A DNA stretch of 64,000 bases from positions 11,770,850 to 11,834,849 of the forward strand of contig NC_134029.1 in the NCBI RefSeq assembly GCF_964204645.1, in the 5' to 3' direction. This DNA is from Tubulanus polymorphus. Lineage: Eukaryota; Nemertea; Palaeonemertea; Tubulaniformes; Tubulanidae. Position 1 is the stretch's first letter. Each line of letters starts with the position of its first letter. Under the pieces are notes generated by a model. It searched no databases, was not told the DNA's origin, and was given only the letters and a program-made list of their open reading frames with translations. Position numbers and translations under genes: made by a program. Positions 13,995-64,000 of the stretch are shown here, piece after piece.

Positions 13995-14000
13995 CTTATT

Positions 14001-14964: not shown

Positions 14965-14989
14965 TTATATTACAGAAATTTAATAAGAA

Positions 14990-16110: not shown

Positions 16111-16123
16111 GTTTTCTAAGCGT

Positions 16124-18690: not shown

Positions 18691-18713
18691 TTATTGACGA
18701 CAACGCCACCTAA

Positions 18714-24686: not shown

Positions 24687-25275
24687 TGTAGCGGGCTTAT
24701 TTTCCTAACCGTTTGGTTTTACTCTATTTTACTTTACGTCCGGTACGTTGTCCGGTCCGGGACCGCAGTTTAGTGTGGAGTGTGCGGGCGCGTGTTTAGA
24801 AAGTTCGTGACCTGCCCAATATATTAGTTTTACCCTCAGTTCTTGAGGCTTCACTGTCGGTGAGTGCATTCTCTATTGTTAGTTTAGGATGTATAGGCTA
24901 TATTGACGTATGTTATTTCTGTGTAAATCTCCTGAGAGAGTTGTATCACTGGTTTTCGAGATTGGCACTCGCATGCCAGAGGCTGATACCCTTAAGGTTA
25001 TAGGACGTTTCCTGGTCTTACTAGACTTGATTATTCGTGAGTTGATTACTTAGTATTTTTCTTAGTGTGTTTTCATTTCTTGTCTTTTTAGTCAATCGTA
25101 GTTTACTGTTTGACGTCGGAGCTTGTGTGATGTCTATATGCAATGTAAAGAATGTGATCTGAGATTTGTACTCCTGAGTCTGAGAAGATTAGATAAACAA
25201 AAGCAGTAATAACACGCATATGACGGAAGCTAATTAGTGGTTTTATTAACTTAGTCAGAACTGAAGGATATTACA
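24687..25275 (+). repeat. 3' LTR of BEL/Pao element
   Basis: The LTR is 589 bp, near-identical to the 5' LTR, and is followed directly by the target duplication ATGTT. Confidence 0.95.
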
Positions 25276-25334
25276 ATGTTTATATACTTTACCTCCTTCC
25301 ATTTATATAATAAATATTTATTAAAGTTAAAATT

Positions 25335-26584: not shown

Positions 26585-26603
26585 TTATTTAACAAAAAAT
26601 AAA

Positions 26604-26819
26604 TTATTTATTTTTTATCATGTTTACTAATCCAAAAATAATAGCACTTAAAACTGTAATTAAAAATAAAATAATATGTTCAGCAGCAAAGTTAATAATA
26701 TTCCCAGCAGATTTCAATATAAAACCAACAATTGATGCAATAACTCCTGGCAATGCTGCAGCAGATTTTTTAGATAGTTCCCATATTATGCTCATTATTA
26801 TGCTAAATATTTTGCTCAT
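26604..26819 (-). CDS. Hydrophobic 71-aa segment, probably the tail of the upstream protein
   Basis: Two hydrophobic helices (ALPGVIASIVGFILKSAG and IILFLITVLSAIIFGLVNMI) end in a basic tail. Unlike its neighbours it lacks a TAAATG-type start motif (AAAGAAATG instead). In copy C the equivalent frame has no ATG and reads straight on from sequence matching the last residues of the 493-aa protein (SIQDKV). I therefore think the ancestral protein was one chain and that a frameshift at about 26832 separates the parts in B. It is membrane-active or membrane-anchoring by appearance. Confidence 0.6.
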   Translation of the reverse strand: MSKIFSIIMSIIWELSKKSAAALPGVIASIVGFILKSAGNIINFAAEHIILFLITVLSAIIFGLVNMIKNK

Positions 26820-26833
26820 TTCTTTAAACCATC

Positions 26834-28315: not shown

Positions 28316-28330
28316 TTACATAATAGAAAA

Positions 28331-29656
28331 TTAAAATTTGAAATATAATATTCCTCCGATTACAATTCCTATACAAGTTATAGCTAATTTAGTATTTTCA
28401 TGGGATTTATTATCATCATTTAGTTTAATTATATCATGTTGAATATTATCAGTTCTAATATTTTCTGATGTATTATAATCTTTTATTTTAGAATCATTAT
28501 TTAATTTAATATTATTAGTTTTAGTTTCTGTTGATTGAATATGTTTTTTATTTTTTTCACCTTCCATTAATCTTGGAGCAGTGATAATCTTTTTATTTAT
28601 ATCATTTAATCCAAATGAATTATTTATTGTTGCAGTTTTAATTAGATTATTATAACCAATTATGTTTCCCATCTTTAATACTAAATCATTAGAAATAATT
28701 AATAGATTAGGGCCTATACAATAATTTAATCTAATATGTGATTTATCTAAATAATTTTGATATCTTACAATGTTTTCTGGAATCGATCTATTTTTATCAT
28801 TATGAATGGAATCTTCAAATAAAACTTTGAATTGTTTCTGCGCATCGAATGAAGTGTTATCATTTCCAATTATTGGGGATCTTGTTTCAACTTGCGCACC
28901 TAAAATACATATCAAATAAGTTCTAATAGATTGATTTATTCTTTGTATACCAGCTTTAGTAAAACCTTCACCATTTTCTAAAATGAAATTAACCCAACCA
29001 TTATTGTTTTGTTGTTGTATATTATTATAATATTTTGGTAATTCATTCCAATTTAGTGTTCTTATATCTGAATCTGTCATTATTTTTCCAAATTCTTTAG
29101 TATACAATATTCCTAATCCACCCATTGTTCCAATTTTTGCTCTAAAATCTTTATTTGAGTTAATATTAAATTCATAACATATTTTATAAAACTTAGAAAA
29201 ATTAATATTATTATTCAATTCTTTAAAATATTTTGAACCTGGTAAAGGACATTCTAATTCATCTAATATCAATTTTATTTGAAAATAAGTATGAAATCTA
29301 AAAAGTGATAACATCAATGGTAAACTTGGTTTGTTTAAATGATCATTCCAACTAATTCCACATCCTGTTGTTGCACAATAAACAGCAAAATTTAATTGGT
29401 TCTGCCAATACTTCATATTAGATTTTAATAACCATTGTTTTGCCTCATTTAAATTTTTGAAATTAATTGTATACACATGAAATATATTTTCCATCTTTAC
29501 ATGAAAATTATTACTTTCAGTAACATAAATATATAAATCAATTAATGAATTTAAAACTTCATTTCTATATGTAATATCTTTATTAAAATCTATTGCTGGG
29601 ATATTATATTTAATTGATTTATTATATTGGAAAGCTTTTGGAAAACTATCTGCCAT
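28331..29656 (-). CDS. 441-aa Polinton protein of unknown function (copy B)
   Basis: Intact frame, not assigned. Distinctive stretches are YWQNQLNFAVYCATTGCGIS (about 84-103), CPLPGSKYF, EGFTKAGIQRINQSIRTYLI and ICILGAQVETRSPIIGND, followed by an Asn/Lys-rich linker and a carboxy-terminal membrane anchor (LAITCIGIVIGGILYFKF). The tail anchor and the place within the capsid gene block suggest a virion or assembly protein. The start fits TATATAAATG after AATTTTTTAATT. In copy C only about the first 25 codons remain. It is not a recognisable protease, so the maturation protease of the element remains unidentified. Confidence 0.65.
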   Translation of the reverse strand: MADSFPKAFQYNKSIKYNIPAIDFNKDITYRNEVLNSLIDLYIYVTESNNFHVKMENIFHVYTINFKNLNEAKQWLLKSNMKYWQNQLNFAVYCATTGCGISWNDHLNKPSLPLMLSLFRFHTYFQIKLILDELECPLPGSKYFKELNNNINFSKFYKICYEFNINSNKDFRAKIGTMGGLGILYTKEFGKIMTDSDIRTLNWNELPKYYNNIQQQNNNGWVNFILENGEGFTKAGIQRINQSIRTYLICILGAQVETRSPIIGNDNTSFDAQKQFKVLFEDSIHNDKNRSIPENIVRYQNYLDKSHIRLNYCIGPNLLIISNDLVLKMGNIIGYNNLIKTATINNSFGLNDINKKIITAPRLMEGEKNKKHIQSTETKTNNIKLNNDSKIKDYNTSENIRTDNIQHDIIKLNDDNKSHENTKLAITCIGIVIGGILYFKF

Positions 29657-29672
29657 TTATATAATTAAAAAA

Positions 29673-30107
29673 TTAATAATTTATTAATTCTTTTAATAAT
29701 TTATCTTGTTCTTCAACTGTTATATGACCATTTAAACTTATTATATAATCTAGTGTGTTCTTTAATTTATTAATTTCTTTTATATTAGTTTTAATTTTTT
29801 CTTTATTACTTTTTATATTTAATTTTGAACTTATACCAGTTAAAACACTTGAACTTAATCCTAATACACCAATTGATATAGCTAAAGGCGTTAATGGACT
29901 GAATATTGCTAGAAATGTTATTACAGAACTAATTGTAACTGAACCACTTATAATCAAATAATATATAATTTTACTTTTTAAATATTTTTTCTTTTTTATC
30001 TTTAAATCATTTTCAAATTCTAATATTTGTTTTTCTAAATATGTTTTTAATTTAGTTTTATTTATATCATGAGGAATAATATCAATATTATCAACTTTAT
30101 CTTCCAT
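29673..30107 (-). CDS. 144-aa two-pass membrane protein (copy B)
   Basis: An amino-terminal Lys-rich helix (LEKQILEFENDLKIKKKKYL) leads into two adjacent membrane segments (IIYYLIISGSVTISSVITFL and FSPLTPLAISIGVLGLSSSV, about 48-92). A Lys/Asn-rich helical tail follows. The function is unknown. Copy C keeps the frame (55462-55899), with a lost start codon (ATA for ATG). The start motif is AATTTTTTTTT then GCTAAATAAATG. It is part of a run of four short genes with only 20-35 bp between them, read leftward. Confidence 0.7.
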   Translation of the reverse strand: MEDKVDNIDIIPHDINKTKLKTYLEKQILEFENDLKIKKKKYLKSKIIYYLIISGSVTISSVITFLAIFSPLTPLAISIGVLGLSSSVLTGISSKLNIKSNKEKIKTNIKEINKLKNTLDYIISLNGHITVEEQDKLLKELINY

Positions 30108-30128
30108 TTATTTAGCAAAAAAAAATTA

Positions 30129-30551
30129 CTAATTAGTAAACTTATAAGCAACAAATATAACAATAACAGTTCCGCCTAAAATCCAAATTATTTCATATTT
30201 CTTCTGTTCATTACTTGGGGTATAATAATCTGATAATTTAGGTTTGTATAGATGTAATTTTTCTTTATTGGATACTGCGTTATATAAACTCATTGCATCA
30301 TCGACTGATTGAAAATCTCTATGTGAAATCTTCTGATCATATAATTCCTTGTTAATATAATCCATATAGTTTTGTCGTTTTTCTCTATATTCTTCTGCTG
30401 CTTTATTGTATTTCTCTAATGCTAAGTTATGTCTTTTTTGTTCTGTTAATGATCCATTTTTATCAATATGTTTTATTAAATAACCACCACCAGTAAATGC
30501 TAAAGCGTTAACAATTGCCGATCCTATAATAGTTATAATTGCAGAAGCCAT
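30129..30551 (-). CDS. 140-aa membrane protein with central helix (copy B)
   Basis: Hydrophobic ends (SAIITIIGSAIVNALAFTGG at 2-21 and IIWILGGTVIVIFVAYKF at about 121-138) flank a soluble helical middle with EKYNKAAEEYREKRQNYMDY. The copy C homologue (56, 916-56338 region, starting 56338) is about 90% identical by eye and intact, so selection or recent divergence preserved it. The start motif is TAATTATTTTACTAAATAAATG-like. The two anchors with a helical bridge suggest a membrane-spanning virion component; this is inference. Confidence 0.72.
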   Translation of the reverse strand: MASAIITIIGSAIVNALAFTGGGYLIKHIDKNGSLTEQKRHNLALEKYNKAAEEYREKRQNYMDYINKELYDQKISHRDFQSVDDAMSLYNAVSNKEKLHLYKPKLSDYYTPSNEQKKYEIIWILGGTVIVIFVAYKFTN

Positions 30552-30575
30552 TTATTTAGTAAAATAATTACGCAT

Positions 30576-30797
30576 TTATATGGGAGTAATATATTTTTGT
30601 TTTTCCAAATAATCAATAGTTAAATTAGATAAAGTAACTGCTAATGTTAATTTAAAAATATCATTTATATCAAATCTATCAACATTAACACTTCCCATTT
30701 TTAATACCTTTTTTAATACCATTGAATAACCAACAGTTCCAACTGATAATAATGCTCCATTATATAATCCAGTTATTATCCACTTATTATCACTCAT
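30576..30797 (-). CDS. 73-aa small hydrophobic protein (copy B)
   Basis: A short protein with a Gly-rich hydrophobic start (WIITGLYNGALLSVGTVGYS) and a second hydrophobic stretch (IFKLTLAVTLSNLTIDYL). A counterpart exists in copy C (56366-56583) with one frameshift. The start motif is TAATTTTTTTT then GATAAATAAATG. Function unknown. Confidence 0.65.
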   Translation of the reverse strand: MSDNKWIITGLYNGALLSVGTVGYSMVLKKVLKMGSVNVDRFDINDIFKLTLAVTLSNLTIDYLEKQKYITPI

Positions 30798-30822
30798 TTA
30801 TTTATCAAAAAAAATTACTATC
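30798..30822 (-). promoter_or_regulatory. Example of shared start motif: T-run then TAAATAAATG
   Basis: Upstream of most copy B genes the minus strand reads TAATTTTTT (or a close variant), a few variable bases, then TAAATAAATG or TATATAAATG with the ATG as start codon. This is seen before the genes starting at 26584, 29656, 30107, 30551, 30797 and 31155, and in copy C before 47764 (plus), 56338 and 57706. A second form, AAAATATGTA then TAAATG, precedes 16771, 31927 and 32298. It resembles the logic of the late TAAATG promoters of cytoplasmic DNA viruses; function is inferred. Confidence 0.6.
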
Positions 30823-30831
30823 ATCAAAATA

Positions 30832-31155
30832 TTAAGTTATCTTATTTATGATTATTTCAACATTTATTTCATTACTAGTTTCATTTGTATATATTTCAAT
30901 TATTATTTTTTTAATATCATCGATGATAAAATCTTCATCTAATTCATAAAATCTTAAAGATTCTCTAATTAAATTAGTAATCTTTTCTACATTAAAAGTT
31001 ACTTTATCTATTGTTGTTTCATACTCAAATGTTGTTTCATTAGAATATGCAATATTTTTAATATGTGTAATTACATCATTAACGTTAAATTTCATTTCTT
31101 TCTCATGTTTAAAATCAAACCCAAAACATATACTCGGCCCAACAGTTATATTCAT
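30832..31155 (-). CDS. 107-aa conserved protein of unknown function (copy B)
   Basis: Starts MNITVGPSICFGFDFKHEKE, which is identical in copy C (56584-56940), and continues as an acidic alpha/beta-looking small protein without membrane segments. It was not recognised. The first nine or so residues are uncharged and conserved. Copy C is intact and 11 residues longer at the carboxy-terminus. It is tightly packed between the 73-aa gene and the penton-like gene. The start motif is TAATTTTTTCACTATATAAATG-like. Confidence 0.65.
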   Translation of the reverse strand: MNITVGPSICFGFDFKHEKEMKFNVNDVITHIKNIAYSNETTFEYETTIDKVTFNVEKITNLIRESLRFYELDEDFIIDDIKKIIIEIYTNETSNEINVEIIINKIT

Positions 31156-31171
31156 TTATATAGTGAAAAAA

Positions 31172-31927
31172 TTACTCTTTACATCTTATAACTAATTCAT
31201 AAATTACAGGGAAATTATTTAAATCAATTAAATAACCATTATGATTTCTTATTTCTAATTTAAAATTATTAAATTTAGGAATGCAAGGTTTAAAATCACA
31301 TTCTGTTAAATTATAATTTATTTGAGTTCCAAATTGTTTAACATTTTTTAGCGGTAAAATATTTAGTATACTAGAACTACAAATTGTTTCTTTAGTTGCT
31401 TCGAAAGTTTTTGTAGGCTCGATTAAATTGCAATAAATATAAAAGTGCGTTAATGGTATTATATTTGAGCTGCCTTCTGCGTTTCCAGTAACTGTAAGAG
31501 GTTTAATTCCTAACATTTTAGCCAGTGGTTTGTTTACCATAAATTTATGTTGTTCATTAGATATCTTTATTCTAATTTTATTAGTACTATCAATTTTATT
31601 AAATTTAATTTCAAATACAGAAGTGCCCCCGATTTTCAACCGAGCTCTTCTATTAATTTCCTGCGCTAATGATTCTAAATTATATAATCCTGGTTTTAAA
31701 AATATATGAAACCATTTATCTTTATTTCTCATATAAATCATAAACCCTCTATGTTCAAAAGTTTTATCCGAAATATTATAAAAAGAATTACATAAACTTA
31801 TATTTACTAATTTTAAATCTACACAATTCTTGAATTCTCTATCTAATTGAACTAGTAAATTATGTGATTTATAATCTGTAAGTCTTCTAGAATCAACAAA
31901 TATTCTGTATTCGTTTAATTCTACCAT
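31172..31927 (-). CDS. Putative penton-like minor capsid protein (copy B)
   Basis: 251 aa, beta-rich, with no membrane segment. Recognisable blocks are LKLVNISLCNSFYNIS, WFHIFLKPGLYNLESLAQEI, ILNILPLKNVKQFGTQINYN and a final HNGYLIDLNNFPVIYEL. This pattern (FYNI near the start, PG-YNLE, PLKNVKQFG, then hydrophobic V-YEL) matches what I know of the single jelly-roll minor capsid or penton proteins of Polintons and relatives. The assignment is from memory and has not been tested by search. The copy C homologue has a frameshift near 57340. The start is in the AAAATATGTA...TAAATG class, shared with the 117-aa and HNH genes. Confidence 0.55.
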   Translation of the reverse strand: MVELNEYRIFVDSRRLTDYKSHNLLVQLDREFKNCVDLKLVNISLCNSFYNISDKTFEHRGFMIYMRNKDKWFHIFLKPGLYNLESLAQEINRRARLKIGGTSVFEIKFNKIDSTNKIRIKISNEQHKFMVNKPLAKMLGIKPLTVTGNAEGSSNIIPLTHFYIYCNLIEPTKTFEATKETICSSSILNILPLKNVKQFGTQINYNLTECDFKPCIPKFNNFKLEIRNHNGYLIDLNNFPVIYELVIRCKE

Positions 31928-31944
31928 TTATTTTACATATTTTC

Positions 31945-32298
31945 TTATTCGAAATCTATTTCATGATGCCCTTTTTCATTCTTACCTTTGTATACGAAAT
32001 AGAAATCTCCAGAACATAATTCTTCTAAGTCTTCACTTGATAATCTATGAAATCTATCCGGTAAATATGTTCTGAATTTATGTGTATTTCCTTTTAATCC
32101 TTCATATTCTAAGTGTATAACTAATTTATCTCCATAGTTATTAGTAACTGTAACAATATCTGTAATTAGATATTTCTTATGGATTGTTAATTCTGTTAAC
32201 TTTTTGAATTTATAATCTACAGATTTTACATTTGTGATATCTTTAATTCTATCTAGAAATGATTTGTTGTTCTCACTGTGTGTTTGTTTACTCTCCAT
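31945..32298 (-). CDS. 117-aa conserved protein, possible nucleic-acid-binding small domain (copy B)
   Basis: Short soluble protein. The central block (YLITDIVTVTNNYGDKLVIH ... FRTYLPDRFHRLSSEDLEEL) is alternating hydrophobic and looks like a small beta-barrel. The copy C relative is at 47764-48090 (TKYGEKVSA ... FKVFLPDKWVALSTEELKDL). An OB-fold-like, single-strand-binding role next to the polymerase is a guess from shape and position only. It lies 30 bp downstream of nothing but the polymerase tail on the low side, and its start motif is of the AAAATATGTA type. Confidence 0.6.
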   Translation of the reverse strand: MESKQTHSENNKSFLDRIKDITNVKSVDYKFKKLTELTIHKKYLITDIVTVTNNYGDKLVIHLEYEGLKGNTHKFRTYLPDRFHRLSSEDLEELCSGDFYFVYKGKNEKGHHEIDFE

Positions 32299-32327
32299 TT
32301 ATAATACATATTTTTATTAAAATTTGA

Positions 32328-35300
32328 TTAACACGTTAGAATTCTTTTCATTATCTCGTTCTCTTTTGTTTCTTCTCTTTTAAATTTTAAGTATTCATCT
32401 AAATTACAACCATAAGCAACTGTATGAATTCCATCATCCAGAATATATCTTTTATCATCAAATGGGTTTAGACTAATCTTTTCAATTTCTTCAATAAACA
32501 TTTCATGATCTTCAGATCCTAAACATCTCATCTTATGTTTTCTAACTTCTTCATTGAATATACAATTGATGTAATCTTTGAAATGAATATTCTTTTCTAC
32601 TACACTTTTGGTTATTCCTTTTAACTTTTTAGCTTCATGTTCTTTAGTTTTATATGAATACATTTTAGATCTAATACCAATGAACTCTATCATTTCTTCA
32701 CCACCTAATTCATCTTTGAATTTACCAGGAACTTTTTTATTATCATTGCTAAACAATTCATGATTTTTAGGATAGTTAGTGAAATCAAAATGATGTTTTA
32801 ATGTTTTCAAATCATCTGTTATGTTATCAGTTTTTATCTTTAATATGTAAGAATCTGTATCAAAATATAGTATTTCTATATGTTTTTCTCCAAAAAGTGG
32901 TTGTAATACATTATAATAGAATTCATACATTAGTAATTTTGATAATTCTAAAACTGATGCGCCAACATAGATTGGTTTATTAAATTTCATTGATGTTCTT
33001 CTCATCTTAACTGCAGCTAAATTTTCATCAAATATTCTGTTACCATTGAACTTAGGATATTTTTGTAAATGTCTAATTCTTTTACCATTACTAACTAACT
33101 CAATATCATTTCTATTTCTAATATTTTCACAAGTCTTACCATAGAATGCATTATTCATTAACTTGAAGAAATCTTTTTCGAAATCAGTTTTAGCTTCAGT
33201 TCTCTGTTTGGTGTTAAAATCTATATATTTTTCTAACCACTTAGATTGGCTGAATGAAATATATCTATGTACTTTTTTTAGAACCATTCCTTGTTTTAGA
33301 TAAAACTTTAACATTCTATAATGTACTACATAATTATATTTATCTTCTTGAGTTACCATTAACTTTTCTGTATGAATATGATTTTCGGGTTTAATTCTTT
33401 TTTGGTAATTTGATAATTCTTCATGAGTTACAGTTTTATGTTCGGGACAGTAAGCTAGATTTCTAGATTTAAATTTAATATGTTCAGGATATTCCAAGTC
33501 TACAACAAAGAAGTAACCAGTATCTGAATCATCTGCAATATCTAGGATTCTTTTCTTCCAATCAAATTTATCATTATTTTCATTCTGTAAAACTTCACTT
33601 ATTTCAAATACTCCATAAGGTTGTGGTTCCATCATTGCCCAACCATATAGATTATTTGCATCTATATATAATAACTTATATCCAGGGTTATCATTTACAT
33701 TGAAATATCTATCCCCTAATACACCTGAAACTCCTCCTCTTATAGATTTTTCAAATAATGATAATTGATCTATATTTGTTAACAAATCCATTTTTATATC
33801 TGTAAATTTTAATCCACAATCCCATGTTAATCCTGGTGATGAATAATTATGACAAGGATCAATATTAAAATATTTTAGGTTTACATCTCTAAACCTTTCG
33901 AATATATCAGTTAATAATAATACATCTGATTTTAAATATAAATCTACTAATTGTCCATGATTTTCTATTTTGAAGTGATTCCAAATATTCAATGTTCTAT
34001 TATATACTTCATCTTTAACATATTCATTTTTTAATTCATCATAGAATTGTTCTTTCAATAATTCAGTTATGTTAAAATCATTATGTGATTTATAGAAAGA
34101 ATATGGAATTGCTCCTTTATATCTCATTAATTTAAAATCATCATTATTTGGATAGTGTTGTTTTAATATTTTTAATTCATCATCAACTAATGATTTTGAT
34201 AAGTTATCTAATGAACTATTTAAAAATCTATATGAATCTATAAATCTTAGACACCCAAATTGGAATGATATATAATTCTCAGATGTTTTAGCTAACATTC
34301 TTAATTTATAAGTTGTTATCTTTTGGTCTATTTGAATTTAATCGTTCTATTTCATTATTGATTTCTTCTATTTTATGACATAACTGTTTGATGAATAAAT
34401 GAGCATCATATCCTGATAAATTATGAAATATTACTGGTACAAAATTAATTTTCTTAGCTTGTAAGTTACAATTCTCATGTGCGGCGCCTCTAAACTTTCC
34501 GTTCAAATGATCATGGTCTCTTACTTTTTTATCTTTATAATTAAATATCTTTTCACAATAATAACATTTATCTGCAAACGCAAATGCTTCTTTATCTTCT
34601 TCTGTCATTATAATTTCTATATTTGTATTCAATAATTTACTAAATCTTATTTCATATTCAATTAATAAGTCACAAAAATGATTGATAACATTTTCATTTC
34701 TGTAATTATAATATTCACTTTCAATTAGTTCTGGATAATCAGATTTTATATATAACCCGAAAGCAGCAGCTGATTGATGAATCTTTTTAATAGTATTTGT
34801 TATTGGTGGTTCATCTGAAAAATCATTTTCATTAGGATTTAATTTCTTTCTTTTATAATATATTTCTTTTCTATCTTGATCAGTTAGTTCTTTATTCAAT
34901 GATTCAAAATCTCCATATATTACAAATGGTACTTTATTTTTGTAATCATATTTTTTGAATTCTAATATTTTATCTTTTTCATTTGGTAAAACTAATTTAC
35001 AATAATCATGATTTTCACATAATTGTTTATGATTTAATAATGTACTTTCATTACTGAATCTATGTAAACATTTTCTACAAAGATATATTTTATGGTGATC
35101 ACTTTCTGATTTAAAAAATAAATCGATTTGTTTAATCCACATATAATGATTCTCATAATATAGTATATCTATAACATCGTTTGAATCATAATCTTTTGAT
35201 AGATATAAAGGTTCTAATGTATAATGTTTTATATTGTTACCTTTTGTATTTGGTAATTTGATTAAATCAAATACATTTATCTTTATATTATTATCTCTTT

Positions 35301-36308
35301 CTATTTTTGGGATGTTTTTAATTATAACAGGATACTTATCTATCATATAATTATTTTCAAATGGTTTATAATGAGTTAATCTACAAATATTATAAGTTGC
35401 AGGATGTAAACAACTTATTATAGCCCATAGAAAACATTTATCATCTTCATTTTGTACATTTATAACAGCATTAGTTTTAAATGGTAGTTTAATATAACCC
35501 GATGCTTCAATATCTGGTTCTTTATAATATGATACATTATTTTCATCAATTGGTTTTGATTTAGTTAACTTATTATATTTTGTGTTATAAACATGTTAAG
35601 TCATAAATATTATTTCATCAAATATTAAACCAGATCCATCAAAACATTTCTCTTCTATTTTAGTTTTTACTTCATTATAACATTTATCTAATTTATCATC
35701 TATATGTTGTTTTGAAATAATATGTTGTGAATGAGAATTTATATTATATATTGGTTTATCTTCAGATTTTATAAACTTTACTTTAACTGATATACTAATT
35801 TTAGGATATTCAACATCTGTAATTATTTTCATTATTTCTTTCATATTTTCTAAATGTTTTTTATTTTCTTCTAATGTTTTTCCTTTATGAAATTTAAACT
35901 CGGTAGATCTTTTTTATCTAATGAATTAATATAATTTCTTACATGTTCCATGTATGGTCTTTTATTGTTTAATTTATTTTTTATGCTTTTAATTGTCTTC
36001 TGTTTCTTATCATTATCTTTATCAAAATAATCTTCACCTAAAATATCATTATTCTTATTTCTAATATGACTTTTAGATTTTAAATGTTCTTTATAATATC
36101 TTTTATCACTGAATGATTGATAACATGTATCACATTTGTATGTTTCTTTTTCATTCTTTAATTCATCTAATTTAGTTTCTAATATATCATCTTCATATTC
36201 TAATTTCAATTTATTCTGTAAATGTGTTTTAGTTTTATTGTGTCTTGCTTTTTGGGATTTATCTATATTGATATTACATGTTGGACATTAGTACTTATTT
36301 GCTTCCAT
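32328..36308 (-). pseudogene. POLB: Protein-primed type DNA polymerase B with amino-terminal zinc fingers (copy B)
   Basis: The enzyme replicates the linear element. From 36308: a short finger-like CPTC...H start, a C2H2 finger (CDTCYQSFSDKRYYKEH), then AVINVQNEDDKCFLWAIIS, the 3'-5' exonuclease motif IYGDFESLNKE (about 34905), a Cys/His block (CYYCEKIF, RDHDHLNGKFRGAAH), motif A LLYIDANNLYGWAM (about 33650), motif B LMNNAFYGKT (about 33150) and motif C YFDTDS (32851-32868, uninterrupted). Breaks: in-frame TAA at codon 7, a frame change near 35890, in-frame TAA near 35597 and a frame change near 34300. The polymerase half (32328-34298, 656 aa) is open. Upstream of the gene is the block duplicated from the HNH gene. 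Confidence 0.88.
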
Positions 36309-36324
36309 TTTAATACTAAATTTT

Positions 36325-36440
36325 TTTTTTAAATTGATTTTAGAAGTTCAATGATTTATATCATGTACTATTTCAATCACACTTTACTAACACTTTTAAT
36401 GTTTAAAAATCTAACTCATACAAATATGAATATTGAAATA
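36325..36440 (-). promoter_or_regulatory. Candidate POLB promoter block, duplicated before the HNH gene
   Basis: It shares AATTGATTTTAGAAGTT, CTTTACTAACACTTTTAAT and AAAAATCTAACTCATACAAA with 16795-16925. In both places the block ends about 20-45 bp before the ATG. The motif AACTTCTAAAATCAATTT (read on the coding strand) also precedes the plus-strand HNH ATG of copy C (about 45510-45528). Confidence 0.6.
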
Positions 36441-36454
36441 ATGTTGTAAATATA

Positions 36455-36703
36455 TACTTTTATATTGAATAATCTGTCAATTTAAATGTTATTCATTTAC
36501 ATGAATATTTTAAGAGTAATAGGGGTAATGGGCTTTCAGGTTAAAGGTTGAATGGTCGAGTTCATTAAAAACAAATATTAAAAGTAATTTAAAACTATAA
36601 TATATTCTCATAACCGTGTGTATTTCAGTTGAATAATAGAATAATTATTATTATTCGAATATATTTGATTATATGAATTTGTGTATTGTAAATAAATCAA
36701 TAG
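36455..36703. repeat. Right terminal inverted repeat of Polinton copy B
   Basis: It is inverted relative to 12001-12248 and about 95% identical by eye. It includes CTTAAAATATT/AATATTTTAAG at the body side, AGTAATAGGGG (36515) and ATAACCGTGTGTATTTCAG. It stops at about 36703, the position equivalent to the centre of the left palindrome. Confidence 0.85.
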
Positions 36704-49389: not shown

Positions 49390-49730
49390 TTAAATAAATT
49401 CATATTTAAATGGGTGTTGTGATCGAAATAGTAATTTTGATCGTTTATTATTTTTCAATTTATCCATATATTCGTTATGTAAATCATGTGGAATAATATC
49501 ATTTTCCTCAAGTGCATTTTTCATCGATTTCCTATCTTTATTGTGGAATAAAACTAAAAATCTAATGTTTTCTCTAAAATCTTTAACAATTGAATTATAT
49601 TTTTGATTTAAAACCCATGTTGTTATCCCAAAATGTCTCCCAGAGAAAGCTAAATAGCATAACTCACTTTCTATCACTTTTGAATCATGTAAATTTGCAC
49701 AATCATCTATGATAAAGAATGTATTAGATC

Positions 49731-49734
<4 letters not shown>
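49390..49734 (-). pseudogene. ATP: Packaging ATPase (copy C), amino-terminal half deleted
   Basis: The carboxy-terminal half is near-identical to copy B (LCYLAFSGRHFGITTW; Walker B region just upstream, near 49710-49730). Homology ends at 49734 at a (TA)n run. Beyond the run the integrase tail resumes, so about 320 bp present in B, including the Walker A motif and the gene start, is missing. It cannot bind ATP normally. Confidence 0.85.
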
Positions 49735-50505: not shown

Positions 50506-53484
50506 TGAAAGGCTGAATCCAAGAACATGTCTATCGCACTTTTGAGCCCAAACGTCTACTTTTACTTAGTAGCCACTTGAGAACAATAAGCAATTAACGA
50601 TATCAGCTACTTTTCCAGTAGTATACATTTCAAAACAGTCACTCTGAAATAGTATTCCTTTCAATTCGGTTGGTTTTCTATAGTAACTGTTTCGAAGAGT
50701 CTACTATTGAAAAGTGACCATTTTAAAACATCTGGTTTCGATAGTGCACACTAGCAGTAGAGGTGACTGTAAAACCACCCGTCTGTCAACAGTGACTTTG
50801 TGATAGTAACTCTTACCGTAGCAGCTACTCTCAAAACACATCGTTTCTAAAAGTCAACTATTGAATAGTGACCATTTGAGATCACTTGCCAGATTCTCTG
50901 TTATAAATACACTGTAGCAACATATGCTTCAGATTTGCAGTGATACGTGACAATATAAACATACTGAAAACTCTACTCATGCTATAGTTTGGGGTATAAT
51001 TCTATTTTGAGTGACTCAGTTAAGATCTGAAGATATTGTAGATACTCTGTGAGGATGTGAAATGTGACGATCGATTCCCAACTCTTACCAATAAAAGTCG
51101 AAATTGGAGTTAAATTTGTTTCCAAATTGTCAATAGTTATGTAGTGTTAAAATAAATCGAAATTTCCTTCTTTTCATGGCAATATGATTTAATGCCGACA
51201 AATGCAGCTATTTTCAAGCATGGGTCTGCATTTATTTTTGGTATATTCTTAGATTAAAAGCGCAATCATAGATTCAGGCTATAACCTCTCATTATTGAAA
51301 TGGTGGTTTATTTTCAATGGGGGCCTGGATGTCTCTGCATCTTAAGATGTGCATTTCGGAGTGTTCGAATTTCCCTGAAATCATTGATCTTTTTTTAAAC
51401 AAAATATGCCATATCCGTGTGGATTTTAAACATTCTAAAGAAATCATCTAAATTGAGCCCATATTTGATCAAATCTTTTAAAAGAAACTTTGTATGGTAT
51501 TCAAGATTTCATTTGGATTACGGTAACGGCCTTTGGTGATCGTCACCGGGGTCATGAATGAAGAAATCCCGTAATAGAATTTTAAATATGATAAAATTTG
51601 TTAAAGGTGAAACCGCAACGTTTCGACTGTTGACTAACAGCAATCATCAGGTAGAACGTAGACATTTCTAGTGATAAGGGCTTTTAGTCAGATGGCTGTC
51701 AGTCAACAGCCGAAACGTTGTGGTTCAACTTTAATCAATTTCATGATACAAAATTCTGTTGCGGAATTTCTTCATTTATCTACAGTTAACACGGTTTAGA
51801 GTACTTTATTCGACTTCTTCGGGTCCTGTAGCCGTTAAGATCTAAAATTATTTACTTTTCGGCACAGAAGGGATATACAACCGTGTTGCTCCCTATGAGA
51901 GGGATTCCCTCTATATCTGCACCTTAAACCGGTACCTTTGTTGGTTCTAGCCCGCATTCGCTTCCAAATTCAAGTATTGGTAACGTTGGTTTACGATAAT
52001 TTGAGAAAAAGAGTTTAGTTGGAGGAAACTGATGATTATCTTATAATTCAGCCATTCATTGGTTCATCGATTCAGAAAAATAAAATAAAGTCTCATAGAG
52101 ATATTGCGGTGCTAAGTTTATTACTATTAAGAGGTAATTACTTTTGGTTCGTAGTCTTTTGGTGGTTAGTGCAGTTAGTTCATTCGTTCATCAATCACTG
52201 TCTAGTTAGCCTGTGTAATTGACCTGCTGACCGATAGCTGCTGCTGGGTTTTTGATAACCTATATAAACAATTTACTCAACTAAGTAGGAAAGTATGTGA
52301 AACTGAAATTACAGCCTCATTTCTTTCACTTCTTAAGCCAAACGAAGTATTCTCTATCAAATGAAATTGCTGATTTCAAAATTACGTGAACATCTCAACA
52401 CTCAACTCTTATACGCTAATCCTTTGATCTTTTATAATAAGTTGGTAATTTCATTTCAACCAAACCGTATAACTACGAAACAAGATTTTGATTAGGGTAT
52501 CACTTCTAGCAAGCGATAAAACGATTCAATATTCATCAATGAACAAGCAGAGAACAGCGTGACAAAGTGAACATCACATGGATTACTTAAAAATCGTTTG
52601 TATCGAAATAAACAATAAATTCAAGGTTAATTCTAAGTATTTTAGATACATTTTTTTCATAATTAATTTTATGAACATATGATTTTATTTGTATATTCCT
52701 CTCTCATATACCCTCAAAAACAAATTAAGCCTAAAAGACAAATTTATTTCTTGTCTTTCTTTTCTACAAAATCAAAGATTTATAATCGAAAATGTAAAAC
52801 AAAAATCTTAAAATTCTAAAGATTCTAGGACTGGCACTATATTTTAGTATTAATGGATTCAATCAATGATGATGATATATGAATCAATAGTTTTCCTATT
52901 GGATATTGCCATTTTGTTGAGCGTAATATAATTTAGGGGATTCTTGGCAACTCAAAAACTTTGATTTTCTATTCACAGAACTGTATTCAAAGCATACAGA
53001 GTTCTGTATATAAAGCATATGGGGTTTAATAGTACCTTTGAACCTGTCACGTATCACTGCAAATCTTTAACAGCTGCTGCTATTTTGAACAGGAAATTAC
53101 CTTGCCATCTCAAAATGGTCACTTTTCAATAGTTGACTTTTAGAAACGATGTGTTTTGAGAGTAGCTGCTGCGGTAAGAGTTACTATCACAAAGTCACTG
53201 TTTACAGGCGGGTGGTTTTACAGTGACCTCTACTGCTAGTGTGTACTATCGAAACCAGATGTTTTAAACTGTTCACTTTTCAATAGTGGACTCTTCGAAA
53301 CAGTTACTATAGAAAACCAACCGAATTGAATGGAATACTATTTCAGAGTGACTGTTTTGAAATGTATACTACTGGAAAAGTAGCCGATATCGTTAATTGC
53401 TTATTGTTCTCAAGTGGCTACTAAGTAAAAGTAGACGTTTGGGCTCAAAAGTGCGATAGGCATGTTCTTGGATTCAGCCTTTCA
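50506..53484. mobile_element. 3-kb non-autonomous transposon with about 450-bp inverted repeats
   Basis: The ends TGAAAGGCTGAATCC...GGATTCAGCCTTTCA begin long inverted repeats, roughly 50506-50960 and 53040-53484, about 90% identical by eye. They contain repeated AGTGACCATTTT-type subunits. The target duplication is at most 2-3 bp and is hidden in an A-run. There is no frame above about 70 aa, so no transposase. Composition is AT-rich but without Polinton genes. The middle (51780-53040) shows nothing recognisable. Confidence 0.8.
51560..51778. repeat. Palindromic repeat with GAAACG/CTGATGA words
   Basis: AAGAAATCCCGTAATAGAAT at the left is mirrored by ATTCTGTTGCGGAATTTCTT at the right. Inside, CAACGTTTCGACTGTTGACT is mirrored by AGTCAACAGCCGAAACGTTG. 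The minus strand reads CTGATGA ... GAAAC around an AACAG/CTGTT stem, reminiscent of a decayed hammerhead fold, but stem I pairing is poor. It is probably a small element inside the 3-kb transposon. Confidence 0.5.
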
Positions 53485-53862
53485 AATATCAATCATATTC
53501 AATATCCACCAATAATCATCATCATCTTTCTTAACATTTTTCATATCAATTAAATCTCCTTGCCACTGTTGATCTACATAACTTACCATAGTTTTACGAG
53601 TTTTATATTTTCTAACAATTTTTTTATGTGTTGTATATGTTGGCTGTTCTAACATAAAATCATTTATATCTTTATATTTAACTAAATTTTGTGGGATTAT
53701 CTTATCTAATTTATCTTGTTTTACTTGACGCCATATATTTTTGGTAGAAGAATAAGCAACCGAACTCTCAGGGTTGTAATATAAATTTCTTAAATATTGT
53801 TCTTTAGTATTAGGAGTTTTTTTACCACCCATTTATATATCGTTAATTTTAACTTAATATTT

Positions 53863-55111
53863 CTAATATTGAATACTATCTAATTGAGAATTTATAATAT
53901 TTAATTGCGCGTCAGATATAAAATAATTGTGCATTTTGAAATTTTTGATTCCTTTCTTCTTTTTCATGAATAATTGTATCCCATCTTTAGTATTCTGCAG
54001 CTTTTTTTCCAGAACCATGTAATGAATTATCCTCTGTTGTTCTTAAATCTAACCATAGTGCATATTTATTACCGGTATAATAATCAATTTGATTAATATT
54101 ACAATTTTCAGATGATTTTATTTTTTCATTCATAAAATGTTTTCTAATTTCTGGCCATTGATCTATCATTCTCATTCCTAGACAAAATATTTTATTTGCT
54201 ATACCTTCAATTGGTTTTTCTACTTTTGATATTTCAGGATTATAATAATCATCAACATTTATTGCGCCATTAGAATATGTTGCAATGGTAAAAAATATCA
54301 ATGCGCCGTTTATAGATCTTCTTGGGAAGTTAATATTCTCATTAATTACTTCATCATTTGCATTAATAGTTACAGTTTTAAATTTATCAATATAATCATA
54401 TAATAATGAAAATCCTTGATTGTATTGAGTTTGAATCATGCTAGCAATATGTTCATCAGTTACTGAATCATATTCTAAACATATATTCGATAATTTATAA
54501 CCCATATCTTTAACAACGCTAGATAAAACAATTTCATTAACGGGAGCAAATGTTATTTCGAATATAATATCTTCTTGAATTGCGTATTTATATAAAGGTG
54601 CATTATTATTTATCAATTCAAAATCTAATGGAATTTTATGTTTGCTTCCATAAATCTTTTTGATCAAATTATCTGCGGTACGAGTTACTATTGCGTCATT
54701 AGCTCCTGATCTTAATTTATTTTGGTTTTCTGATAGGATGATTTGAAATATAATATTATTTCTATTTTCTTTAGTTAACCATAAATCTTTGTAATGCATA
54801 AATAAATTATAATCATCTAATGAGAAAACTGTTTCCGGGCCAATCTTTTTAGTTAATTTTTTAATCAAATATCTTCCAACATTATCAACAACATAATTAT
54901 TATTATTACCATTTACATTTATATCAGCCGATAAATAAATACTATTTGGAACATAAAAAGTATTTTGATTTAATCTCGGGATTCTTACATATAAAGTTTC
55001 ATCAGGATTAATATTAGAAGGATTATGAGTAATTATATGATGAGATCTTTCTGCTTTAATAGCATTAGATATTCTTGAATTCTTAGAAGGATTGATATAA
55101 CTCCCACTCAT
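53863..55111 (-). pseudogene. Putative major capsid protein (copy C), frameshift near the end
   Basis: The relative of 25335-26584, open for 374 aa. The last about 40 residues follow in another frame after an A-run near 54003. The first 40 residues match copy B almost exactly (SYINPSKNSRISNAIKAERS). Additional conserved blocks are VGRYLIKKL, HYKDLWLTKENRNN, NINFPRRSINGALIFF and YALWLDLRTTEDNSLHGSG. Only homopolymer frameshifts, in different places, disrupt B and C. Capsid role as for copy B, by family resemblance. Start TTAAATAAATG, as in B. Confidence 0.6.
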
Positions 55112-56958: not shown

Positions 56959-57706
56959 TTACTCTTTACATCTTATAATTAATTCATAAATTACAGGAAA
57001 ATTATTTAAATCAATTAAATATCCATCATGATTTCTAAGTTCTAATCTAAAATTATTAAAATGAGGAATGCATGGTTTGAAATCACATTCTATTAAATTA
57101 TAATTTATTTGAGTTCCAAATTGTTTAACATTTTTAGTGGTAAAATATTTAGTATACTAGAACTACAAATTGTTTCTTTAGTTGCTTCGAATGTTTTTGT
57201 AGGATCGATTAAATTGCAATAAATATATAAGTGTGTAAAAGGTATTATATTTGAGATGCCTTCTGCGCTTCCAGTAACTGTAAGCGGTTTAATTCCTAAC
57301 ATTTTAGCCATTGGTTTGTTTACCATAAATTTATGTTGTTCATCTTTATTCTTATCATATTAGTACTATCAATTTTATTAAATTTAATTTCAAATACAGA
57401 AGTGCCCCCGATTTTCAACCGAGCTCTTCTATTAATTTCCTGCGCTAATGATTCTAAATTATATAATCCTGGTTTTAAAAATAGATGAAACCATTTATCT
57501 TTATTTCTCATATAAATCATAAACCCTCTATGTTCAAAAGTTTTATCCGATATATTACAAAAAGAATTACATAAACTTACATTTACTAATTTTAAATCAA
57601 CACAATTCTTAAATTCTCTATCTAATTGTACTAGTAAATTATGTGATTTAGAATTTAACAGTTTTCTAGAATCAACAAATATTCTATATTCTTTTACTTC
57701 ACCCAT
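56959..57706 (-). pseudogene. Putative penton-like minor capsid protein (copy C), frameshifted
   Basis: The relative of 31172-31927. The amino-terminal frame 57320-57706 has LKLVNVSLCNSFCNIS and WFHLFLKPGLYNLESL. A frame change near 57345 and another near 57137 (end of ILNILPLK) separate the rest. Same tentative capsid assignment as copy B. It shares a 69-bp intergenic region with the divergent zinc-finger gene. Confidence 0.55.
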
Positions 57707-59055: not shown

Positions 59056-62000
59056 TTAATAACCATAAGGTAATGTTTTTATTCCATCACCCAAAATATA
59101 TCTTTTATCACCGAATGGATTTAAACTAGTTTTTTCAACTTCATTAATGTACATCTTGTGATCTTCTGATCTTAAACAATTCATTTTATGTTTCATTACA
59201 AATGAGTTATATAAACACTTTATATAATCTTGAAATTCTATATGTTTATCAACCACATGTTTTGTTATTCCATTTAACTTTTTAGCTTCATGATCTTTTG
59301 TTCTATAACTATACATTTTACTTCTTATCCCAACAAATTCAATCATTTCATCGCCCCCTAATTCATCTTTAAACTTGCCAGGAATCTTTTTACTATCGTT
59401 GCTAAATAGTTCATGATCTTTGGGATAATTGCTAAAATCAAAATGATGTTTTGATGTTTTTAAGTCTTTTGTTATGTCATTTGTCTTGATGTTTAGTATG
59501 TACGCATCAGTATTCCGGGCGATTAATGGAAATCCACAGTTAAATGTGCCATATTCAGTTGACAAATCATAAACATAATCTGATGGGTTATATATTTCGA
59601 ATAAATCTTTAAATTCTTCAGTTATTTCTTTTTCTGTATGCCTTAGATTAAAACAATTTGGCATAGATTTAATCAATCCAATATTCATATTAAAACCTAA
59701 TGAATTACATAAAGGATTCAATCCTGATATACCAACTTTTCCTTTTTGTACAAATGTTATTACTGGAGAACTCGTAAATTTTTTAGCACCATCAGCTGCG
59801 TAGAATCCAATGAAGAACCATTTTCTTAAATTATCTTTTGCATTTAATACATAATCTGGAACTATCTTTTCTTTTTTTGGAAGTATAACTTTTAACTATT
59901 GCATGAATATAGAATTCGTCATTATATTTTATAGCAAAATCTTTAGGGTTATTCACGAGTATTCTATAAACTGCTGATGATTTCACAACATCCATGATTC
60001 TAAATGTTTTATGTGAATAAACTTCTTCACAGTATTTCTTTATTCTTTCTAATAATTTCAAATCTTGATTACATAAATACCAACAATATTTATTGCCACT
60101 TACATAATTATACACACCTGCTGAACCATCACCCATGAAAAATCCTTTAATAAAATATTCTTTTTCTTCTAATGTTTCAGGTTCTATATTATAAGTATTA
60201 TCAATTATTTCATCAAATGACATATGATCCATTCTTTGGAAAAATCTTTTATGTAATAATTCATCTCCAATTTTTATATCAGTTGGTTTTATTTCATCAC
60301 CATTTCGTTTAATTAAACTATGATCTTCTGTAACATCTACAAACCCTAATTTAGTTCTAACTCTATAAATCTTTTTATTTGTTTTATGCCTAATTATATT
60401 CTTTAATTTTTTCCATCCATTTCTTGTCCAAACATCCATTAATCCATTTAATTGTATTAACTCTTTTTTACCATATAAAATATAAGATTTATTTTGTTTT
60501 GGAATTATTTCTGAAATTCTTCTTATCAATATTTTATCATTACATTTTAATAATTTTGGGGTGTCAGCTGTTACAGAATCAAAATATAAGATTACTATAT
60601 GTTTTTCCCTAAAAAGTGGTTGTAAAACATTATAATAAAATCATACATTAATAATTTTGATATTTCTAAAACAGTTGAACCAATGAATATAGGTTTATTA
60701 AATTTCATTGACGTTCTTTTTAATTTTACCGCGGTTAAATAATCTTCAAATCTTTTATTTCCTAAATGTCTAGGACTTGATTGTAAATGTCCTAATCGTT
60801 CAGAATTATCTACTAATTCAATATCATTTCTATTTCTAATATTTTCACATGTTTAACCATAAAAACTATTATTCATTAATTTGAAGAAATCTTTTTCAAA
60901 ATCTGTTTTTGATATGGTTCTCTGTTGAGTATTAAAATCTACATATTTTTCTAACCACTTCGATTGATTAAATTCAATATATCTATGTACTTTATTTGAT
61001 TTCATTCCTTGTTTTAGATAAAATTTTAACATTCTATAATGAACAATATAATTATATTTATCATTTTGTGTTAATATCAATTTTTTTGTAAAAACATGAT
61101 CTTTTGATTTTATTTTCTTCTGGTATTCACTTAAATAATTATCACCTACGGTTAAATGTTCTGGGCAATATGGTAAATTTCTTGTTTTAAACTTTATGTC
61201 ATCAGGATATTCTAAATCAAAAACAAAGAAATAACCAATCGGTGCTTCATCTTCTAAACTCATAATTGCGCTTTCCCAATTAGTTTTATCATCATTTTCA
61301 ACTTCTGTTAATATAAACTTTTTGTATGGTTGAGGTTGCATCATTGCCCAACCATATAAATTATTGGCGTCATTATATAATAATTTGTATTCATCATTTG
61401 CTTTAAAATACCTATCTCCCATAACACCACTAATTCCACCTCTAATTGATTTTTCAAATAATAAAACCATGTCTGGTTCTTTTAATAAATCTAATTCTAC
61501 ATTTGTATATTTCAAACCACATTGCCAAGTTAAACCAGGACTTGAATAACAATAACAGGGATCAACATTAAAATGATTCAAATTAACTTCTCTAAATTTT
61601 TCAAATATATCAGCCAATATCATAACATCTGATTTTAAGTATAAATCTACTAATTAACCATGATTTTTTATCTTAAAGTGATTCCAAATATTTAATGTTC
61701 TATTAAACACTTCATCTTTCACATACTCCTCTTTTAATTGATCATAAAATTGTTCTTTCAATAATTCTGTTACATTAAAATCATCATGTGTTTTATAAAA
61801 TGAATAAGGAATTGCGCCTTTATATCTCAATAATTTAAAATCTTGGTCATTTGGATAATATTGTCGAGTTATTATAAAATCATTATCAACTAAACGTTTT
61901 GCTAAATTATCTAATAAACTTGCTAGAAATCTATAAGAATCTAAAAATCTAATGCAACCAAATTGAAATAAAATATACTTTTCGGATGTCTTAGCTAATA

Positions 62001-64000
62001 GTTTAAAATCTTATTTTCTTACATTTGTACCATTCATAGCATTATATTCTTCTATTTCTTGATTAATTGCGCCCAATTTTCCCGATAATTGTTTTATAAA
62101 TAGATGGGTATCATAGCCCGATAAATTATGAAATAATTTTGGTACGAAATTAACTTTCTTAGCTTGTAAATTACAATCTTCATGAGCAGCTCCACGATAT
62201 TTTGAATTTAAATGATCATGATCTCTAACTTTTTCATCAAATGAATAAAAACGTTTTTCACAATAACAACAATGAATTGCATAATTAAAATCAATTTCAT
62301 CTTCTTTTGTCATAACTATTCTTTTATTTTTGTTTAATAATTTTGCAAAATCACTTTCTATTTCAATTATTTTGTTACAAAAATCATTAAACTCCATCTT
62401 CACCTCTAAGAGAAATATATTGACTTTCATATAATTCAGGATAATTTGATTTTATGTAAATTCCATAAGCAGCAGCTCTTTGATGAACTTTTTTAATTGT
62501 GTTTATAATTGGTGGATCTTGAATTATGTCTTCATTTAATTCATTTCCTTTATCCATTGATTTTAAAAATTGCTTTTTATTGTATATTTCTTTTCTATAT
62601 TGATCAGTTAATTCTTTATTCAACGATTCAAAATCCCCATAAATTACAAATGGAACAATATTTTTAAATTTATGATTAGTAAATTTCAACTTACAATCTT
62701 TTTTTGTTGGCATTATCAATTTACAAAAAATCTTTATTATCACATAATTCTTTATGTTTTAATAATGTATTCTCAGTCATAAATTTAGATAAACATTTTC
62801 TAAATAGATAAATTTTATGATGATGATCACTTTCTGTTCTAAAGAATAAATCAATTTGTTTTAACCACATATAATGTTCATTTTCATCTTTTTTGTAATG
62901 TAACAAATCTATAGCATTTTCATCATCATCATATTCTGTTAGATATAAAGCTTCTAATGTATAATCTTTAATATTTACACCTTTTGTCTTTGGTAATTGC
63001 ATTAATTCAAATACATTTATTTTTAAATTATTAACTTTTTCTATTTTAGGAATCATCTTTATAGTTACTGGATATTGATCAATTTTATATAATGTTTCAC
63101 ATTTCCGGTAATTTGTTATTCTAAATCTATGCGTAATATTTTCTGTTGGGTGTAAGCAACTAATAATTGACCATAGCAAACATGTATTATCTTCATTTTG
63201 AACATTTATTACTGCTTTTGTTGTAAATGGTAATTTGATATAACTTGATGCTTTAATATCCTTTTCTGTTGTAAAGTTTGAATCATTTTTAAACATTGTT
63301 TTACTTTTTGATGTTTTATTCATTTTTGTATTATAAACATTTAAATCTAAAAATATAATTTCATTCAATGTTAAACCAGAACCCTCAAAATATCTTTCTT
63401 CAATATGACGTTTAAATTCTTAAAATATTTTTTCTAACTTTTCGTTTATTTGTGTTTTTGAAATTATTTCTTCAGAGAGTGTTTGAATATTATAATCCAT
63501 TTTCTCTTCTGACTTTAAAAAACTTACTTTCCCAGAGATACTTATACAGAGATATTAATTAACATCTGTTATCAAATCTAGTATTTTTCCATTATTTCAT
63601 TAAATTTACTATAATCTTTTATTGTTGTACCTTTAAAAAATCTAAATATAATGGCTGCAGGACCAATTTTACTATGTAATGTTTCTAAAATTTCAATTGT
63701 ATCTTTTATTTCTAGTGAATCGATATAATTTCTAACATTTTCCATGTAAGGTTTATTTGAAATGGATTTAGTTTTTGAAGTTGGTTTTTTTACTTGTTGA
63801 GGTTTATCATCGAAATAATCTATTCCTAAAACATTATTACTCAAATTTTGATGGTGTTTTTGTGATTTGATATGTCTTTTATAATTCCTTTTTACTATAA
63901 ATTCATTACAAACTTCACATTTTATTTCATCCACATTCATATCATCTAATCGTTCTTTTCTTTCATTGGAATTTTCTGAAGTTTCAAAATCTATAACATT
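59056..64000 (-). pseudogene. POLB: Protein-primed type DNA polymerase B with intein (copy C), cut by window edge
   Basis: Same architecture as copy B: finger (CEVCNEFIVKRNYKRH, about 63895), AVINVQNEDNTCLLWSIIS, IYGDFESLNKE (about 62620), Cys/His block (CYCEKRF, RDHDHLNSKYRGAAH), motif A (YNDANNLYGWAM, about 61345-61380), motif B LMNNSFYG (about 60855-60880), and motif C split by an intein at 59512-60577. After the intein the residues read TDAY, with Ala for the usual Ser. Breaks include TAA in motif B's downstream helix (60856), TAA near 61656, and frame changes near 60630 and 62400 and before 63400. The start is beyond the window: the frame is open to 64000. Confidence 0.88.
59512..60577 (-). 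other. Intein with LAGLIDADG homing endonuclease in the DNA polymerase
   Basis: Inteins excise themselves from a host protein and often carry a homing nuclease. It starts with Ser1 (SVTADTPKLLK, block A) directly after YFD of motif C. Block B is VTEDHSLI (T83, H86), preceded by KKIYRVRTKLGFVDVTE. The nuclease motifs are YFIKGFFMGDGS (about 141-152) and FFIGFYAADGAKK (about 250-260). Block F is VYDLSTEYGTFNCG, and the end is LIARN followed by extein Thr (TDAY). The size of about 355 aa is typical. The penultimate residue is Arg rather than the usual His. One frame change in an A-run near 59870 breaks the frame as assembled. The insertion position is the well-known polymerase motif C site (YGD|TDS). 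Confidence 0.87.

Follow-up and report, generated by a model that had tools for sequence, protein, structure and literature searches.

Inteins inside family B DNA polymerases are known from archaea and giant viruses. An example is the polymerase of Mimivirus, for which the account in PMC549080 gives the position YGD/TDS (the slash marks the insertion point) as the pol-c allele. Inteins have also been described from invertebrate iridoviruses, which are DNA viruses of invertebrates (Bigot 2013, as cited in PMC5784728). Metazoan genomes are said to be without inteins both in a survey of eukaryotic inteins (PMC5784728) and in a review (PMC8529194), and in the passages concerned both sources base a drug-target argument on this absence. 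The nearest earlier hint of inteins in Polinton polymerases is a statement in a 2024 preprint (PMC11071308, citing Jeong 2023, msad274) that the Polinton polymerases (pPolBs) hold diverse homing endonuclease domains, which suggests intein invasions. The word intein is absent from the main text of PMC10328495 and PMC4642659. We found no description of an intein in an animal Polinton in the titles and abstract openings listed, a search outside of which most subscription journals lie and which is therefore no proof that such an intein is unpublished.

Here we report on an insert in a stretch of 64,000 nucleotides from the nemertean Tubulanus polymorphus (the window; 11770850-11834849 on contig C5). 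Its insertion point YxD/TDS is that of the archaeal and giant-virus pol-c inteins, and like these it has a Ser at position 1, a terminal Asn, a Thr at position +1 and a LAGLIDADG endonuclease between the splicing blocks. The host differs, being a Polinton polymerase (PF03175 type) of a transposable element with very many chromosomal copies. Like the inserts of PMC11071308 the insert bears an endonuclease and lies in a Polinton polymerase; we add an analysis of the splicing domain, the site, the copy number and the phylogeny, which are absent from the text consulted of that preprint. Inteins of this allele occupy this site also in the pPolB-type proteins P0002, P0003, P0004, P0010 and P0011 (42-64% identical), which belong to other Polinton-type lineages, P0004 having a very different polymerase. 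Taken together, we consider it very likely that a complete pol-c intein, equipped with a LAGLIDADG homing endonuclease of two repeats and predicted to splice, is fixed or nearly fixed in a multiplied animal Polinton family and has moved between Polinton lineages. The architecture, the fold of the N-half, the site, the copy number, the open frames, the constraint and the discordant histories of intein and polymerase all speak for this reading.

The intein and its Polinton

On the minus strand, positions 60577-59512 and their flanks read HIVILYFD / SVTADTPKLLK ... VTEDHSL ... GFFMGDG ... GFYAADG ... VYDLSTEYGTFNCGFPLIARN / TDAYILN. The junctions are YFD/SVTADTP at the start and FPLIARN/TDAY at the end. 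The parts of the interrupted polymerase, which belongs to a Polinton termed copy C, are as follows.

59512..60577, minus strand: intein, 1066 nt (355 codons and a net one-base frameshift), with Ser1, TEDH (block B), two LAGLIDADG-type motifs, VYDL..GTFN and a terminal Asn
59867..60577, minus strand: N-half of the intein, read in one frame and comprising the Hint N-part with blocks A and B and the first of the LAGLIDADG repeats, 92% to residues 1-237 of the L009 intein
59512..59877, minus strand: C-half of the intein, read in another frame and comprising the second of the LAGLIDADG repeats (GFYAADG) and the F/G blocks for splicing with Asn last, 79% to residues 235-355 of the L009 intein
60578..64000, minus strand: copy C pPolB N-extein, broken and running past the window edge (tblastn with the L009 N-extein)
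60578-60640, 60637-62388, 62390-62734, 62727-63587 and 63584-64000, minus strand: pieces of this N-extein
59059..59511, minus strand: copy C pPolB C-extein, first residues TDAY, 91% to the L009 C-extein

A sequence-only reading of the window had proposed an intein of about 355 codons with Ser1, a TxxH block, two LAGLIDADG motifs, VYDL..GTF and a terminal Asn inside motif C of a DNA polymerase. The architecture holds, with exact ends at 60577 and 59512, and so does the site, YFD/intein/TDAY. The length is that of the intein in all ten long-frame copies that we fetched from the genome (355 residues), the window copy being frameshifted at 1066 nt. The window copy of the polymerase is degenerate because its intein is read in one frame for residues 1-237 and in another for residues 235-355, the frame changing near 59870, and because breaks affect its N-extein too. 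On the opposite strand (58172-58996, plus) an open reading frame with a U1-type zinc finger (4.6e-6) adjoins the copy C polymerase, and a related open reading frame also adjoins the polymerase at locus L002.

Hint-type inteins are defined by the blocks A, B, F and G, a nucleophile at position 1, Thr..His in block B, a terminal Asn and Ser, Thr or Cys at position +1. The insert has S1, TEDH, N355 and T+1, and its two LAGLIDADG repeats with their acidic residues predict a homing endonuclease. Across 56 aligned copies from the genome, broken ones included, Ser1 and the Thr and His of block B are present in all 56, the two LAGLIDADG Asp in 54 and 51 and the terminal Asn and the +1 Thr in 52 each. 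At the position following TD in motif C (window 59503-59505), 28 of the 56 copies have Ala and 24 have Ser.

In profile searches the N-half of the window intein was matched by Intein_splicing (2e-5) and LAGLIDADG_3 (0.0071), both under the curated cut-offs, and in the PDB by PI-PkoII (1.6e-4). The unbroken intein of locus L009 was over the cut-offs of intein_Nterm (TIGR01445, 1.1e-7) and LAGLIDADG_3 (3.2e-6) and under that of Intein_splicing (5.5e-7). The latter profile (PF14890) stayed under its curated cut-off in all three own copies tested, namely the window, L002 and L009, of which L002 and L009 are one genomic place. Thus, the profile search suggested by the sequence-only reading returns a Hint-type as well as a LAGLIDADG match. 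The same two domains are indicated by an AlphaFold2 model built from the first 237 intein residues of the window copy (pLDDT 79.6, pTM 0.56). When Foldseek's top chains were re-aligned, residues 1-115 of the model matched solved inteins, as predicted for a Hint fold, and residues 134-225 matched the LAGLIDADG enzyme I-DmoI. The model aligns over 197 residues with PI-PkoII (2cw7, rmsd 7.5 A) and over 204 residues with PI-PfuI (1dq3, rmsd 8.8 A), the large deviations being as would be expected of two domains able to shift.

In the protein database 282 relatives of the intein were found, and the best among the 120 listed is 64% identical over the full length. Phage records gave two weak partial matches, with 37% and 45% identity over 42% and 31% of the N-half. 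In the alignment of the 120 listed relatives the intein starts with a Ser right after an Asp in 113, and TDS, TDG or TDN lies at most 14 residues from the intein end in 117; both ends are found as D/S and N/TD[SGN] in 110. The insertion at YxD/TDS and the grouping with other inteins of that site identify the pol-c allele. The insert is thereby confirmed as an intein of LAGLIDADG type that occupies the pol-c site in the polymerase of a Polinton.

The window holds two further Polinton copies, A and B, and remnants of other copy C genes.

2677..5256, minus strand: fragment of the copy A pPolB, B-type, with an uninterrupted motif C and a truncation soon after it
12001..36701, minus strand: copy B Polinton, a natural intein-free comparison with inverted repeats at both ends and a nested BEL/Pao-type element (18102-24986)
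32328..34319, minus strand: copy B pPolB, intein-free, YFDTDSYILK across the site at 32858/32859, 74% to the L009 N-extein
49393..49731, minus strand: copy C packaging ATPase (A32 type), fragment, 81% to the copy B ATPase
53455..53805 and 50366-50506, minus strand: copy C rve integrase in two fragments, 50% and 45% to the copy B rve open reading frame
54290..55111, minus strand: copy C capsid-like gene, remnant, 89% to the copy B open reading frame 25733-26584
56962..57706, minus strand: copy C gene, function unassigned, remnant, about 90% to the copy B open reading frame 31175-31927

The inverted repeats at the ends of copy B are 97.6% identical over 250 nt. The element encodes a PF03175 polymerase (9.1e-14), an A32-type ATPase (Pox_A32, 1.6e-11), an rve integrase (1.3e-7, 32.3 bits against a cut-off of 32.6) and an endonuclease VII-like gene; the capsid match is weak (Capsid_N, E 0.013, open reading frame 25733-26584). 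Since copy C keeps remnants of the same genes, its right end lying beyond the window, the Polinton setting given by the sequence-only reading is borne out. So is the nesting of a selfish protein element in a virus-like transposon in an animal chromosome, as the intein lies in a Polinton pPolB with many chromosomal copies.

Three smaller features of the window were seen alongside. Inverted repeats of 97% complementarity (50506-50877 and 53113-53484) lie between the two copy C integrase fragments, with 2.2 kb separating them; a transposon has probably inserted here at a later time. The BEL/Pao-type retroelement in copy B (18102-24986) has LTR-like repeats that are 98% alike and matches to DUF1759, RVT_1 and DUF5641. 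Four tandem units, each of about 154 nt, occupy 44785-45399.

Copies in the genome

We searched the genome (268 Mb, 77 contigs) with the N-half of the intein and found at least 150 scored places (of 497 candidates) which, the window's own excepted, are 85-93% identical. Many of the matches sit in open frames of 1,100-1,690 amino acids. The ten long-frame copies that were fetched all read through the intein in frame, with a polymerase of 1686-1690 amino acids, and uninterrupted relatives exist. The inteins of L014 and L018 start with SITADTP. Beyond what the sequence-only reading had claimed, the window copy is a broken member of an intein family which is large, recently active and open-framed elsewhere in the genome.

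A query with 120 residues of the N-extein yielded at least 150 scored places (of 1,263 candidates) for the family of copy C. From these, 40 copies were picked by eye for having no intein among the listed intein N-half matches. In all 40 the intein sequence follows directly after the N-extein, often broken. The intein is therefore fixed, or nearly so, in Polinton family C.

For the 45 pairs of the ten long-frame copies, a sample chosen for open frames only, dN/dS is 0.061 in the N-extein (400 codons preceding the insertion), 0.230 in the intein itself and 0.149 in the C-extein (145 codons following it). Within the intein-bearing family the intein has a dN of 0.044 versus 0.010 for the N-extein and so evolves about four times faster. 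The nearest neighbor is less than 1% away in 10 of 49 copies and the closest pair is 0.21% apart; therefore the intein-bearing copies have spread recently.

The copies in the genome are mosaics. In 49 copies (seven of the 56 were dropped as truncated or poorly aligned) the distances of neighboring segments correlate and those of the N and C ends do not (L009-L018, L035-L074). The Polinton copies thus recombine at the scale of a few hundred bases, and trees of single copies therefore mean little. Conflicts between intein and N-extein distances, and synonymous blocks beside the insertion, had raised co-conversion by homing as a candidate; general recombination accounts for them instead, the breaks being also inside the intein. 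From the segment correlations over these 49 mosaic copies no homing signature, that is, movement as a unit, could be read within the genome.

By eye, copies seem clustered mid-contig on several large contigs (C1-C12, e.g., at 10-19 Mb). As to the source of the assembly's contigs, the odorant receptor profile PF02949 gave three matches over the cut-off, all on one 27 Mb contig which also holds intein copies, and none of 14 control genomes was matched. Together with the BEL/Pao-type retroelement, these matches to a family counted as insect-restricted had suggested an animal and probably an insect source. Two other insect families, PF01395 and PF00379, gave no match in the genome, a null that does not show absence. 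A search with the odorant receptor yielded no relative at E <= 1e-10 among 937 candidates, and COX1 did not turn up in the assembly.

Intein and polymerase histories

An intein tree was calculated from 102 sequences, that is, 98 of the 120 listed relatives and four own copies; relatives were left out when an end could not be placed or when the length was out of range. The nine Polinton-type inteins form one clade (100/99). The corresponding N-extein tree (39 of 124 proteins and two own copies) scatters the intein-bearing Polintons. Here the own family adjoins the intein-free P0001 and P0122-P0124, P0002 sits among the intein-free P0125, P0126 and P0128-P0130, P0003 adjoins P0133/P0134 (N-extein 94%, C-extein 89-90%, no intein), and P0010/P0011 adjoin P0236. 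At least four changes are needed to place the intein-bearing proteins on the polymerase tree without P0004 and five with it. A single polymerase clade of the intein-bearing proteins is rejected with p-AU 4.9e-60, the long-branch P0004 being left out. Because the Polinton inteins are one clade while their polymerases are not, the simplest reading of these trees is that the intein would have moved horizontally between Polinton lineages.

Could the insert instead have been inherited vertically in Polintons and lost many times, with no horizontal movement? The single clade of Polinton inteins would fit, and so would the identities outside P0004, which are roughly alike for intein and exteins (e.g., own copies and P0010, 47% in the intein versus 51% and 52% in the exteins). 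The trees are in conflict with it: the own family and P0002 are neighbors by intein, and as an extein group they are rejected with p-AU 5.8e-99. Further, P0004 has N-exteins only 21-25% identical to the other Polinton-type proteins whereas the inteins are 42-49% identical (against L009: N-extein 21%, C-extein 32%, intein 49%). The search of related Polintons for the same insertion, as proposed by the sequence-only reading, did find it, in two of the best 120 (of 3,475) polymerase relatives; 99 are uninterrupted and 19 unscored, and many clean losses would have been needed. We therefore regard purely vertical inheritance as unlikely and keep to movement between lineages.

Large DNA viruses are the donor that the sequence-only reading had raised. 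PF00136 polymerases make up 107 of the 120 listed intein relatives, one of which carries the name DNA polymerase delta (Chloropicon primus). PF00136 is the polymerase type of giant viruses and most of the non-Polinton relatives sit there. Together with the common ends of 110 of the 120 relatives and the pol-c intein that PMC549080 reports for Mimivirus, this could favor a giant virus as the direct and recent source of the intein in this family of Polintons. In the best tree, a group of 14 members with a similar C-terminal ending is moreover sister to the Polinton inteins. The intein tree tells against it: the nine Polinton-type inteins group with each other (100/99) before any PF00136 sequence, so that Polintons seem to have acquired the intein before this family arose, and the support of the sister group is 48/11. 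In viral contigs, the intein query gave three loci and the PF00136 alignment 49, and the N-extein query had no match. The neighbors at four of these 52 loci (L019, L075, L076 and L079), comprising an SNF2 helicase, a tail-collar domain, TROVE, WD40, an M16 peptidase and a transporter, did not separate giant virus from phage. A direct and recent giant-virus origin thus appears rather improbable. Related inteins are also found in PF00204 proteins (gyrase/topoisomerase B type; P0085, P0101, P0103, P0110 and P0114), at a site xD/TDG which resembles the polymerase site.

Splicing and mobility

In family B polymerases both Asp of motif C are catalytic. Therefore the insert should keep the polymerase off until it is removed, and an intein-interrupted polymerase should be inactive until the intein leaves. 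Given the strong constraint on the exteins and the moderate constraint on the intein, the open-frame polymerase, whose motif C is divided by the insert, most likely undergoes splicing in animal cells.

We suggest that the system could work in the following way. Translation of the polymerase would yield a single chain of about 1,690 residues, with the Asp residues of motif C held apart by the intein (YFD/TDS). The chain would be inactive until the intein, acting through Ser1, its terminal Asn and the Thr at +1, excises and joins the halves. Transposition of the host Polinton would set the copy number of the intein. Its arrival in family C would have been a horizontal movement between Polinton lineages, for which the most likely route may be cleavage of the conserved YxDTDS-coding site by the endonuclease of the intein. 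Splicing, endonuclease activity and homing as the route are what we infer here.

A less active part for the insert is conceivable, namely that of a dead, passive relic in elements that multiply by means of the intein-free family B polymerases. The genome is rich in family B copies, many intein-bearing copies, the window's among them, are broken, and the dN/dS of the intein is well over that of the N-extein (0.23 versus 0.06). However, the splicing residues are nearly invariant in the 56 copies, the strong constraint on the exteins beside the intein in open-frame copies would be needless for a helper-fed family, and the close pairs show a recent spread of intein-bearing copies. We find this relic very doubtful. 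That the 1,065 nt are removed at the RNA level, as an intron which happens to be open, is highly improbable in view of a length that is a multiple of three, the open frame in ten of ten long-frame copies, the constraint at the protein level, the intein motifs and the Hint fold.

The predicted splicing intein could do more. The stronger claim, that animal chromosomes harbor a working and still mobile intein which splices a Polinton polymerase at some hundreds of sites and homes between distant polymerase families, is one towards which we lean only slightly. If true, the published rule of no inteins in metazoans would end, and Polintons would be a means by which inteins spread among eukaryotes and the viruses of these. 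An abundant element of an animal genome in which an intein is fixed or nearly so is in any case the setting that PMC5784728 and PMC8529194, in the statements cited above, exclude. One selfish element, the intein, sits here within another, and the outer one sets its copy number. With intein-bearing and intein-free Polintons in one genome, there is a natural test of the homing, resistance and cost of an intein in an animal, and also of Polintons as possible intein carriers between viruses and hosts.

The intein-free side is represented by family B. A 161-residue piece of copy B across the site matched at least 150 scored places (of 1,705 candidates), all unbroken across the site and, copy B itself excepted, 94-98% identical; the query is itself uninterrupted, so that an intein-bearing B copy could not rank among these matches. 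With the B-type N-extein alone, 86 of the 150 matches listed (of 1,262 candidates) are uninterrupted by coordinates and 64 are without a call either way, and by eye none of the 150 lies beside a listed intein. We had considered family B to be wholly intein-free and narrow this to many uninterrupted copies, at least 150 in this genome. Compared with the intein site, family B has 1-6 mismatches per 30 nt upstream and 8-9 per 30 nt downstream. That B is largely uninterrupted in spite of similar flanks may reflect a dead endonuclease, resistance by the downstream differences or a recent arrival of the intein. Copy A had at one point looked as if cut at the homing site, its match stopping at the insertion point; this is an effect of the query, and the sequence continues with YFDTDSYILK before being lost.
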